Below are positions 33,670-41,735 of a stretch of DNA of 51,157 nucleotides, piece by piece. The notes under the pieces were generated by a model. That model did no database searches, was not told the origin of the DNA, and saw only the letters and a program-made list of their open reading frames with translations. Made by a program: the position numbers and the translations under genes. This DNA comes from a virus. Positions within the stretch are counted from its first letter, which is position 1. The number at the start of each line of letters is the position of its first letter. The stretch covers positions 1 to 51,157 of IMG/VR virus record IMGVR_UViG_3300028920_000091. One strand, given 5' to 3'.

Positions 33670-34008
33670 TTACTCAGTCCTAACATCCTTCTCCCACTTC
33701 AGTTCTGGCTCGTTCCAGTAATACATTTCCGGCCTGCCGTCCGGTGCGAAGGTCGGCTCGGGTTCTGGCACCGGAGGCTCCCAATCCAACTTCTCGTTCA
33801 GCGTCCAAGAAGGATAAGGTCTTGGGCGAGCAAAGTTTGTCTTGTCCGGATGGTAGGTATATCCCTTACCGGCGTAGTGTTTATCTTTGCTGTTCATAAA
33901 GGTCTCAACCCACTCGCCACCCAACCGTTCCTCAAGCCATTCCTTGCTCTCGCAAACAACGACCCGCTGAACTATACCGTCCTTGATTTCCGCAAAGTAT
34001 CTTGCCAT
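33670..34008 (-). CDS. Fibre-associated small protein, 112 aa
   Basis: ATG 34008 overlaps the stop of the collagen-like gene (TAATG). Recognisable pattern of a common phage protein: [18 protein letters not shown], then GGEWVETF, YAGKGYTYHPDKTNFA, PYPSWTLNE and a Pro/Glu-rich end. It is usually encoded next to tail-fibre genes and has no known enzymatic activity. It may be a fibre cap or an assembly factor. Confidence 0.6.
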   Translation of the reverse strand: MARYFAEIKDGIVQRVVVCESKEWLEERLGGEWVETFMNSKDKHYAGKGYTYHPDKTNFARPRPYPSWTLNEKLDWEPPVPEPEPTFAPDGRPEMYYWNEPELKWEKDVRTE

Positions 34009-37000
34009 TAATCCACCGTGTAATAAATCGTTATGTGCATTTCCGTTACGGTCCCACTCTGGGCCGTGGTCTCTACCCACACGAAACTATCTGCCGGTAT
34101 TGTCGGGTCATCAAAAGAAGTCACATCGCTACCAGTTGAAACACTTGTGGTAGTCGTTCCACCTGTAACAACCTCGTTGCCGGCCGCACTCCTATCCGAA
34201 CTGTGCCTAATCGTCCAAGTCACCGAAGGAGTATCAGACCCCACCAACACACACCGCATTTCCGTAACCGTTATGGCCGCATTGGTGAAGAATATAGATA
34301 AGTCCACAGCATCGTCAGGACTTTCTATAGTTATACACTTTGGGGGGCCTCCCGGGTCTCCCGTATCCCCTGTATCACCGGTAGGTCCGGTATCTCCCGT
34401 ATCCCCAGTTGCACCCGCAGCACCAGCATTTCCAGTAGGTCCTGTATCACCTGTGTCTCCGGTATCTCCAGTATCTCCGGTGTCGCCCTTGGCACCAGCG
34501 TCACCAGTCCCTCCCGTGGGACCCGTGGGGCCTGTATCGCCGGTATCACCTTTAGCTCCGGCAGCACCGGCATCACCGGTGCCTCCTGTAGGACCAGTGG
34601 GTCCTGTATCACCAGTCGGTCCCGTTGGACCTGTGTCTCCCGTATCACCCTTTTCTACAAGCTTATTCCAGTAACTTCCATCAGTAGGTAATTCATTTGT
34701 TGTATCTTGGATACATACATACGAAGCCCCTAAGAAATAAACGCAGTCATTCTCGCTGTATGCTCCAGTCGCAAAGTTTCCTTGCCACGGATACTCTGTT
34801 CCTGTATCACCAGTTGGCCCTGTTGGTCCGGTATCTCCTGTATCACCAGTGTCGCCCGTGTCTCCTGTATCGCCTTTAACACCTGCGTCTCCAGTTCCAC
34901 CAGTCGGTCCCGTAGGACCTGTAGGCCCGGTATCGCCGGTATCACCAGTATCCCCGGTATCGCCGGTATCACCAGTATCCCCGGTATCACCTTGGTCACC
35001 TTTAGCTCCAGCGTCTCCGGTAGGTCCGGTTACTGTAGAAGTGGGACCTGTAGGACCAGTCGGACCAGTATCACCAGTATCACCAGTATCTCCAGTATCC
35101 CCCGTGGGTCCTGTATCACCCTTCTCAACAAAGAGGTCCCAGCTACCAGTGTTGGCATCAAATCCGGGAGCCGTAGGCCCATCGGTAGCGTCAACACATA
35201 CATAAGAATTGCCACCACGCATAACGCAATCATTAACTTCATATGCACCGGTAGCCCATTCACCCTGCCATGGATACTCAGTTCCAGTAGGACCGGTAGG
35301 GCCGGAATAGTCACTCGTAGGGCCAGTAGGCCCAGTGTCTCCTGTATCACCCGTATCTCCCTTATCCCCTTGGTCGCCCTGAGGACCCGTATCACCTGTA
35401 TCCCCAGTATCACCTGTATCACCTTGGTCACCTTGGTCACCTTGCGGGCCGGTATCACCCGTATCGCCTGTATCCCCGGTATCGCCTTTATCCCCTTGGT
35501 CTCCTTGAGGGCCAGTATCGCCTGTGTCACCAGTATCACCTGTATCGCCTTGGTCACCTTTATCGCCCTGTGGACCTGTGCCACCAGTATCTCCTGTATC
35601 CCCGGTGTCTCCGGTCACACCTATATCACCTTGGTCACCTTGTGGGCCTGTATCCCCGGTGTCACCCGTATCACCAGTGTCACCTTGGTCTCCTTGGTCA
35701 CCCTGAGGACCTGTATCTCCTGTGTCACCGGTGTCGCCAGTATCTCCTTGGTCACCCTTATCACCTTGGGGACCCGTGTCACCTGTATCACCAGTATCTC
35801 CAGTGTCGCCTTGGTCGCCTTGGTCACCCTTATCCCCAGTATCACCAGTATCCCCAGTATCACCAGTTGTTCCGGTAGCACCCGTAACAGCAGTAGGACC
35901 AGTAGGACCTGTAGGACCTGTTACTGTGCTGGTAGGTCCAGTGGGACCAGTATCTCCTGTGTCTCCTGTATCACCTGCGTCTCCCGTGTCTCCGGTATCC
36001 CCAGTATCCCCAGTGTCACCTGTATCGCCAGTAGGTCCGGTTATGGTGCTGGTAGGTCCCGTAGGCCCAGTATTCCCTGTAGGACCAGTAGGTCCTGTTA
36101 CCGTTGAAGTCGGACCAGTAGGCCCCGTATCTCCGGTATCCCCCGTATCACCTGTGTCACCCGTATCTCCTGTATCACCCGTGGGGCCGGTTGGACCAGT
36201 AACAGTAGAAGTCGGACCGGTGGGACCAGTATCGCCAGTGTCACCGGTATCACCCGTAGGTCCAGTGACTGTAGAAGTAGGACCAGTAGGTCCAGTATCG
36301 CCAGTATCACCTGTATCTCCTGTATCTCCCGTATCCCCGGTAGGTCCGGTATTTCCGGTTGCCCCGATACCTGTGCCTCCTGTAGGACCTGTGTCACCCT
36401 TCTCCACGAATAAATCCCAGCTCCCCGTATTGGCATCAAAGCCCGGGGCAGTAGGACCATCAGTGGCATCAACGCAAACATAAGAGTTCCCGCCACGCAT
36501 AACACAGTCATTCACAGAATAAGCACCCGTGGACCACTCTCCTATCCACGGATATTCGGTGCCTGTTACTCCAGTGCCACCTGTATCCCCGGTGTCACCC
36601 GTAGGACCCGTAGGGCCAGTTATAAGGTCAGCAGGACCAGTTGGACCAGTTCCACCCGTATCACCAGTATCACCGGTGTCACCAGTATCTCCGGTGTCTC
36701 CCGTGCCACCAGTAGGACCCGTATCCCCGGTAACACCAATTTCACCAGTTACACCCGTAGGACCTGAGGGACCCGTATTTCCAGTAGGTCCAGTTCCACC
36801 AGTCGGCCCAGTCTTGCCTGTAGGACCCGTATCTCCGGTGCCACCTGTAGGCCCTGTGCCACCAGTAGGACCGGTTCCACCTGTAGGACCGGTATCACCA
36901 CTGTCGCCTGTAACACCCGTATCACCTATAACGCCCGTTGGGCCTATATCACCAGTAGCACCTTGAGGCCCGGTAAGGCCGGTTCCACCTTGTGGACCGG

Positions 37001-40680: not shown

Positions 40681-41735
40681 TATGCCACCGCCCAATCAAG
40701 AAACATATCCATAAACTGTGTCCTTAGTCTTGTCAGCGAAGCGTTCCTCATGCACCAACGCTTACCTAACTCTCCAATGGTCTTACAACTCTCAGGCGTA
40801 TCTATCAGATACTGCACCTTCTCCACGAACTCATCCTCAGACTGCACCAGAAAACCCCCTCCAGAGGCCCTCAGTTGCTCTGAGAGGCCATCTTTATGGT
40901 CCCGGGCTACCACGGGTATACCCGACAGGTTCGCCTCTGTAACGACCTTAGACCAGCTCTCAGTGGTATCTCCCCAGATGGCAAAGATGTCTATCCCTTC
41001 CAGAAAAGAAGCCATGCCTCCCGCCTTGGTGGGTCGGACCTTGAACCTGTCATCTCCCGAAGGGGACGCTCCGACGAGGGAGAAATCACATCCCCTGAGC
41101 CTCTTTAAGAGGGTATAGAAGGAGGGTGGAACCTTGCCCCGTGAGACCCAAGTCCCACTTTGGACACGGCCCACGACAGGTCTCCGCACAGGTCTTTTGA
41201 TATTTATATACGGAGCGACATCCACACAGGGAGGCATGGTAACAGCGTTGGTTTTCATCCTGCGTTCACAATTACTGTATGCCCTACGCACCCACTCCGA
41301 GACAAACCAGTCATAGTCTGCCGGTATAAGCGGGCGTGTTACCATGTGATGAACACCGATTACCCTGTAACGACGCAGCCACTCAAAAGGCCAGCCGCCT
41401 TCAAGGCTGGACCCCTTAGTGTTATGAAGCATGATGACAAAAGGGTCTATATCCTTGACCATCTCCTTGGTCACCATATCTCCTGCGTTCATGTATTTGA
41501 CATGCTGGTTCTGAAGGTAGCGGATAAAGCCCAAGTCCTCGCCACCAGAATTAACTGTCAGCAGGACATGGAATAGCTGGGGGAACGCTTTGACAAAATC
41601 AATTACCGTTGTCTCAATACCGCCCAGACGGGCGTAGTTATTGATGTGAAGAACGGTATTCTTCTTTGTCATAAGTGTAGGCCCCACAGAAGGGGCAACC
41701 CCCAACGACATTAAAGTCTGTTCTATATCCGTCAT
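40680..41735 (-). CDS. GT-B (family 4-like) glycosyltransferase, 351 aa
   Basis: NNYARLGGIETTVIDFVKAF is the typical N-terminal donor/acceptor region. The C-terminal half has DIFAIWGDTTESWSKVVTEANLSGIPVVA, fitting the E-x7-E nucleotide-sugar motif (about residues 252-280). It is probably a retaining GT-B enzyme. Start ATG 41735 has AGGAGAGG 10 nt upstream; ATG 41672 (330 aa, starting TKKNTVLHINNYARLGG) is also plausible. It is first of the modification cassette. The acceptor is unknown. Confidence 0.82.
   Translation of the reverse strand: MTDIEQTLMSLGVAPSVGPTLMTKKNTVLHINNYARLGGIETTVIDFVKAFPQLFHVLLTVNSGGEDLGFIRYLQNQHVKYMNAGDMVTKEMVKDIDPFVIMLHNTKGSSLEGGWPFEWLRRYRVIGVHHMVTRPLIPADYDWFVSEWVRRAYSNCERRMKTNAVTMPPCVDVAPYINIKRPVRRPVVGRVQSGTWVSRGKVPPSFYTLLKRLRGCDFSLVGASPSGDDRFKVRPTKAGGMASFLEGIDIFAIWGDTTESWSKVVTEANLSGIPVVARDHKDGLSEQLRASGGGFLVQSEDEFVEKVQYLIDTPESCKTIGELGKRWCMRNASLTRLRTQFMDMFLDWAVA

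Follow-up and report, generated by a model that had tools for sequence, protein, structure and literature searches.

Why should a phage carry a run of candidate sugar-modifying enzymes directly ahead of the gene for a collagen-like fibre? The question is raised by a single viral record in IMG/VR, 51,157 bases in length (IMGVR_UViG_3300028920_000091; the whole of it hereinafter the window). Its minus strand carries the terminase, portal and capsid genes and, in the order of transcription past the capsid gene, a collagen-like gene (43853-43116), small genes and a cysteine-rich gene (42060-41638). These are followed by genes for a GT4-type glycosyltransferase (GT) of the GT-B kind, a LamG domain protein, a GT2 glycosyltransferase, a methyltransferase and a Maf/GT42-like protein, and then by that for a collagen-like fibre of 1317 residues. 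An earlier reading made from the letters alone (hereinafter the sequence-only reading) had proposed that this five-gene cassette modifies the threonine (Thr)-rich repeats of the fibre with sugars; the genes that it named lie on the minus strand where it had placed them, and the five do lead into the fibre gene. The co-inheritance of GTs and fibre described below suggests that sugars are added by the phage to its own fibre as a coat, and we consider it probable, though far from certain, that the cassette is a fibre-glycosylation module with the fibre as its acceptor.

The evidence that carries this view comes from the same locus in relatives of the phage. Using the major capsid protein (43922..44818, minus strand; phrog_371, 9.6e-23) as the query we collected 48 relatives, and we defined the homologous place by the small cysteine-rich marker gene (41638..42060, minus strand) together with the N-terminal domain of the fibre. 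The scanned set comprised 53 sequences, namely the 48 loci, L082, L083, L070, L422 and the window, of which 10 possess a fibre of this N-terminal type; these represent eight lineages, i.e., the window and seven others. In five of them (L004, L006, L008/L009, L026 and L030), the fibre gene directly follows the homologue of the marker gene, with no enzymes between them and no Gly-X-Y shaft in the fibre; the fibres of L006 and L026 ran past the flank limit and were confirmed in additional sequence. In the other three (the window, L082 and L083/L070), enzymes precede the fibre and the fibre is a Thr-rich collagen, with Thr occupying a fraction of 0.78, 0.93 and 0.74 of the Y positions, respectively. 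The pair of GT4 and Maf-like genes is present in 3/3 Thr-rich collagen lineages as compared to 0/5 non-collagen lineages (Fisher p 0.018), and the genes, their order and their co-inheritance with Thr-rich collagen are seen directly in these sequences. As L082 and L083 came from a collagen DNA pattern, the enzymes played no part in their discovery. Homologues of the GT-B gene in both lie directly 5' of the Maf-like gene and the collagen fibre, and since these cassettes hold nothing more, GT4 and Maf-like constitute the minimal pair; the LamG, GT2 and methyltransferase genes are all missing from them. The window enzymes are 40-52% identical to their counterparts in L082 and L083. Between L083 and L070, a crude ratio of amino acid-changing to silent differences (pN/pS) is 0.17 for the Maf-like gene (22 changes) and 0.07 for the end of the GT-B gene (10 changes). 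The L422 sequence ends within its GT-B gene; L003, L013, L023, L028 and L044 have the marker gene with no fibre detected in the available stretch, and in the remaining scanned relatives neither marker nor fibre was detected in the available sequence.

The fibre itself (34008..37961, minus strand) matches the Pfam Collagen family in 14 stretches (2e-87) and is laid out as the conserved N-terminal domain, a Gly-X-Thr shaft, three inserts and a tip of about 115 residues. The inserts are weakly CBM5/12-like (CBM_5_12, 4e-4, under the Pfam cut-off). Under two pattern settings the shaft comprises 259 to 268 triplets, with Thr at 77-78% of the Y positions (200/259), aspartate at half of the X positions and proline at 29% of them. 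Proline makes up 15% of X and Y combined, and basic residues are few at Y (lysine in 10/268 and arginine in at most 5). The second collagen-like gene (43116..43853, minus strand), a putative head fibre, likewise has Thr at 79% of its Y positions (23/29), so that the Thr-richness noted in the sequence-only reading stands for both genes. That reading had also set the second gene on the other side of the cassette, where it is indeed found but not adjacent, as small genes at 41638-43058 intervene. For comparison, a review, as far as its text was available, gives Thr at 31.6% of Y positions in bacterial collagens overall and 48.3% in those of Gram-positives (PMC8968730). Across 204 viral loci picked by collagen patterns, the 90th percentile for Thr at Y lies at 0.77, which places the window fibre at the high end without making it unique. 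In the accessible passages on the E. coli prophage collagen EPclA, its authors cite Thr glycosylation as an alternative route to collagen stability (PMC3368898). Given the little proline and the few basic Y residues of the shaft, a Thr-linked sugar would be a reasonable stabiliser of the window fibre.

Those 204 loci allowed the association to be examined beyond the phage group. They were obtained with DNA patterns for GDT, GPT and GP[KQE] triplets, each having a collagen open reading frame (at least 60 residues of Gly-X-Y), and 193 were left once near-duplicates had been removed. They were binned by Thr at Y into Thr-rich (at least 0.5, n=49), Thr-poor (at most 0.25, n=49) and intermediate (n=43) sets; GTs were sought with two Pfam families (GT2 and GT4), and many of the records are fragments. 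Anywhere in the record, GT2 or GT4 is found in 28/49 of the Thr-rich as compared to 11/49 of the Thr-poor set (GT2 in 21 versus 11, GT4 in 10 versus 4). Within 5 kb of the collagen gene the counts are 19/49 versus 5/49 (p 0.0019), with 5/43 for the intermediate records (trend across bins, p 5e-4). The difference persists without the relatives L082 and L083 of the window (17/47 versus 5/49), in records offering 9 kb or more of flank (8/17 versus 2/24) and when flank, length and shaft length are entered into a logistic model (permutation p 0.004). Every GT match inside the 5-kb limit shares its strand with the collagen gene (23/23 in the Thr-rich and 6/6 in the Thr-poor set). A family of GT2 proteins of about 355 residues, to which the window GT2 does not belong, occurs in 14/49 Thr-rich and 0/49 Thr-poor records; another GT2 group shows the reverse (1 Thr-rich, 4 Thr-poor records). 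Ser/Thr-rich proteins at the GT-positive Thr-poor loci were considered and dropped, since what had looked like such stretches in L105 and L201 proved to be collagen repeats read off-frame. The survey supports a link between GTs and Thr-rich collagens without proving that the records are independent. The check proposed in the sequence-only reading, namely whether GT cassettes co-occur with Thr-rich collagen-like fibres in related phages, is thereby answered positively at the homologous locus and in the survey; the glycosylation itself we infer. That reading also held that homologous phages with equal fibres and no GTs would speak against it: none of the three lineages in the phage group is of this kind (0/3), but GT-less Thr-rich collagens are many in the survey.

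Turning to the enzymes, the GT4-type protein (40680..41735, minus strand) matches PF00534 (Glycos_transf_1, 2e-8, 34.4 bits against a cut-off of 26.4), and its true start is probably 41672 as judged by its homologues. E259 and E267 are invariant across three homologues, a spacing that we take to be the GT4 E-x7-E motif; with the Pfam match above cut-off, this places the protein in GT4. The Maf-like protein (37964..38746, minus strand), the last ahead of the fibre, is a probable glycosyltransferase of the Maf/DUF115/GT42 fold. It matches phrog_4603 (1.2e-7), labelled 'alpha-2,3-sialyltransferase' in PHROG, and has no Pfam match, including none to PF01973 at E<=0.01, a family matched by 8/14 aligned members of the Maf-like family (best 8.8e-5); a PDB sequence search gave no match. 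Its structure model (predicted local distance difference test, pLDDT, 88.9) is nearest to the Magnetospirillum Maf 5mu5 (Z 15.0, root-mean-square deviation 3.9, 204 residues), followed by HPPK (Z 11.3), CstI (10.3), SteA (10.2) and CstII (about 10); the predicted fold thus places it with the Maf/GT42 proteins. The GT2 of the window (39218..39913, minus strand; 231 residues) matches PF00535 (4.5e-12) and, weakly, beta-4-galactosyltransferase 7 in the PDB (E 0.003). Next to it is a probable class I S-adenosylmethionine-dependent methyltransferase (38736..39263, minus strand; likely start 39221), with an LDVCCGE stretch read off the sequence and a match to Methyltransf_25 (9e-4) that is under the cut-off. 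The LamG/ConA-like protein (39910..40695, minus strand, start uncertain; PF13385, Laminin_G_3, 8.9e-16) had been counted as a part of the sugar cassette; it is absent from the minimal cassettes of L082 and L083, and is probably a virion protein rather than sugar machinery.

As listed, the genes overlap by 16 bases (GT-B/LamG), 4 bases (LamG/GT2) and 11 bases (methyltransferase/Maf-like), and GT2/methyltransferase overlap by 4 (ATGA) if the latter starts at 39221; the Maf-like and fibre genes are 2 bases apart. On account of these overlaps and the 2-base gap, the five genes and the fibre would most simply form one operon; promoter-like sites in the cassette region were not above chance (9 found, 11.9 expected). 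We accordingly posit a scheme in which fibre and enzymes are probably made together from this operon, and the GT4 and the putative Maf/GT42-like transferase place sugars on the Y-position Thr in the infected cell, with activity, acceptor, sugar, initiator and timing all part of the proposal. In the window phage, the GT2 and the methyltransferase would probably extend or cap the glycan. The Thr-linked sugar might stabilise the triple helix in the manner of hydroxyproline in animal collagens, and it would also coat the shaft. According to the portions available of a study of flagellin, Maf is required for adding pseudaminic acid to serine/Thr residues in the cytoplasm prior to export (PMC4065374); action of this type would fit an enzyme that modifies a virion protein in the infected cell.

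The chief rival explanation is that the enzymes alter the host surface (lipopolysaccharide, capsule or a wall polymer), blocking superinfection or changing the receptor, and that they adjoin the fibre as host-recognition genes exchanged together. This is a usual reading of GT genes near phage fibres, e.g., in the available text on pelagimyophages (PMC7029224), and one option given in that on Nanopelagicales phages (PMC10202952). It gains from the great variability of the capsid-to-fibre stretch among the relatives and from the GT cassette of L039, which lacks collagen. On its own, however, it predicts neither the dependence on Thr at Y (5/49, 5/43 and 19/49 from the Thr-poor to the Thr-rich set) nor the 3/3 versus 0/5 split at the homologous locus, and we regard it as unlikely. 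The same variability might have let the locus gather GT and collagen genes independently, with shared ancestry inflating the link. The lineages are indeed few, clustering weakens the survey, and the window cassette alone of the three has LamG, GT2 and methyltransferase; but hitch-hiking of this kind does not readily explain why the order and place of the GT4 and Maf-like pair remain constant over three lineages as divergent as these, or why the differences between L083 and L070 are mostly silent, and we think it distinctly improbable. Glycosylation of phage DNA, an established role of some phage glycosyltransferases according to the text available of PMC12619734, is the least plausible of these and very improbable indeed: the genes sit among virion genes beside the fibre, the Pfam scan of 30 window open reading frames saw no enzyme for a modified base, and such a role gives no reason for the link with Thr-rich collagen.

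Several observations weigh against fibre glycosylation itself. When survey records are clustered by shared proteins the link weakens and few independent lineages remain: with clusters counted by any member, the 5-kb comparison ranges from 8/26 versus 3/39 to 13/34 versus 4/48 (p 0.002 to 0.02), p rises up to 0.08 when clusters are weighted or the distance is set at 3 kb, and under the loosest single linkage, with GT-like proteins included, it is 0.2-1.0, with 44/98 records in one cluster. Among the Thr-rich records, 30/49 have no GT2 or GT4 within 5 kb and 21/49 have none in the record. The fold family of the Maf-like protein includes the pterin kinase HPPK, the namesake of PF01973, and Foldseek gave no match to the model at E <= 0.001 (the top match, CstII, being at 1.3e-3); the fold alone is therefore no proof of GT activity. 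The Pfam scan of 30 window reading frames saw no nucleotide-sugar synthesis gene, and the phage collagen EPclA is stable without sugars, though of a proline- and charge-rich type, as described in the accessible part of PMC3368898. Moreover, GT genes occur without collagen in the relatives G001 and L039 and, weakly, in L013, and 13/13 distant Maf-like relatives lack collagen in the available stretch.

The relative G001 shares 78% capsid protein identity with the window and has GT9/GT4-like, methyltransferase and GT2 genes flanked by two poly-serine proteins of 1585 and 831 residues (L427:11820-16577 and L003:3281-5776; serine/Thr fraction up to 0.90 over 80 residues). Our guess, made after the fact, is that these proteins may be a different hydroxyl-rich acceptor. 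A broader version of the fibre-glycosylation proposal would be that several lineages build O-glycosylated hydroxyl-rich shafts, made of Gly-X-Thr or perhaps, in G001 and the Maf-like relatives, of poly-serine, with the transferases swapped along with them, and that the Maf-like enzyme adds sugar directly to collagen Thr to give a hydroxyproline-free helix; this we offer as a tentative possibility that may well prove wrong. Distant Maf-like genes in L408, L413, L414, L415 and L418 (5/13) are about 9 kb or less from same-strand poly-serine proteins; the same-strand scan found such proteins at 3/49 Thr-poor collagen loci, two of them off-frame artefacts (p 0.008 for stretches of unequal length). 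L039 (L039:14623-18837; capsid protein 47% identical) has GT4 genes past its capsid gene and methyltransferase-like genes recognised by eye, with no collagen and no serine-rich protein in the available stretch. L013:9135-9788 encodes a short protein with no Pfam match, whose AKGPSW start resembles by eye a GT42/DUF115 motif. An exploratory count of Ser/Thr-rich proteins versus GTs within the group of capsid relatives (4/4 versus 2/10) came from hand counts on partial sequence and was not used. Homing-endonuclease-like genes, identified by eye, interrupt the capsid gene in two relatives (L083:3263-5202 and L026:8636-10152).

Further searches delimit how widely the cassette is found. Neither blastn of 37964-42060 nor tblastn of the GT-B and Maf-like proteins gave a match among 50,697 phage records; no cassette relative was confirmed in genome contigs and none by single-sequence scans of viral contigs, and alignment-based scans of the latter yielded 16 and 4 loci. 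A TylF-type methyltransferase (11677) and a sulfotransferase (16887) had been suggested to finish the glycan. Both genes are real, but their distances from the fibre gene are about 22 kb and 16 kb, respectively, with no tie to the cassette, and tblastn of either protein or of the window methyltransferase found no match in the collected loci. Among 15 records scanned, TylF exceeds the cut-off in the window only, G174 of the L083 lineage giving a single weak match below it, and the neighbours of the sulfotransferase are exonuclease and AAA genes; hence, we do not retain either as part of the proposed pathway.

If the fibre is indeed the acceptor, then in some phages the target of fibre-adjacent, phage-encoded GTs would be the virion rather than host or DNA, and knowing how much Thr a collagen shaft contains would help predict such virion-directed enzymes. 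It would also explain Thr-rich phage collagens in a simple way, extend collagen glycosylation to a virus of bacteria and point to enzymes with which stable recombinant collagen could be produced free of hydroxyproline.

Among known systems, Mimivirus L230 resembles the proposed one in being a virus-encoded enzyme that modifies a viral collagen, but it acts in a giant virus by glucosylating hydroxylysine, according to the available text (PMC9614988); the window differs in its scarcity of lysine at Y, and the Pfam scan of 30 of its reading frames saw no lysyl hydroxylase domain. Maf is the nearest fold and, in the accessible account cited above, works on a surface filament protein bearing serine/Thr-linked sugar while that protein is still in the cytoplasm, ahead of export, but the window protein itself lacks a Pfam match to PF01973. 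Glycosylated virions are reported for mycobacteriophages in the parts available of PMC11256854 and PMC12619734, and passages citing Freeman et al. 2023 attribute the glycosylation of their virion proteins to phage-encoded GTs; there, however, the sugars are at the C-termini of capsid and tail tube proteins, with no collagen shaft. Accordingly, the 'new virion coat system' of the sequence-only reading was too strong a phrase, as glycosylation of virions and of collagen Thr (in BclA3) are each known from sources available in part. Their combination at a phage fibre was absent from the papers searched, in a full-text search covering few subscription papers that brought up no evident paper on glycosylation of phage collagen fibres. 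Another likeness is offered by the Actinomycetia phage DSL-LC01 (OQ999401), where a GT2 gene lies 3-4 kb from two Thr-rich collagen genes, all on one strand; this GT2 belongs to the family of about 355 residues (62% identity), and an annotated tryptophan halogenase (L426:14433-16004) and one hypothetical gene lie between. A further comparison is with Clostridioides difficile BclA3/SgtA, where, in the accessible text of PMC7157674, SgtA, a protein of 358 residues encoded just upstream of bclA3, adds GlcNAc to the Thr of collagen repeats. As in that system and the Bacillus BclA type, the window has a Gly-X-Thr collagen shaft, with Thr in 200/259 Y positions, and same-strand GT genes next to the collagen, an arrangement kept in L082 and L083. 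SgtA combines a GT-A domain with a second domain, as opposed to the GT4 and Maf-like proteins beside a 231-residue GT2 in the window, and the likeness of the 355-residue GT2 family to SgtA is one of size and place only. We claim no membership in this class; the window arrangement would, if its enzymes act on the fibre, work like BclA3/SgtA, with the sugar-bearing collagen displayed on a virion rather than on the surface of a spore.

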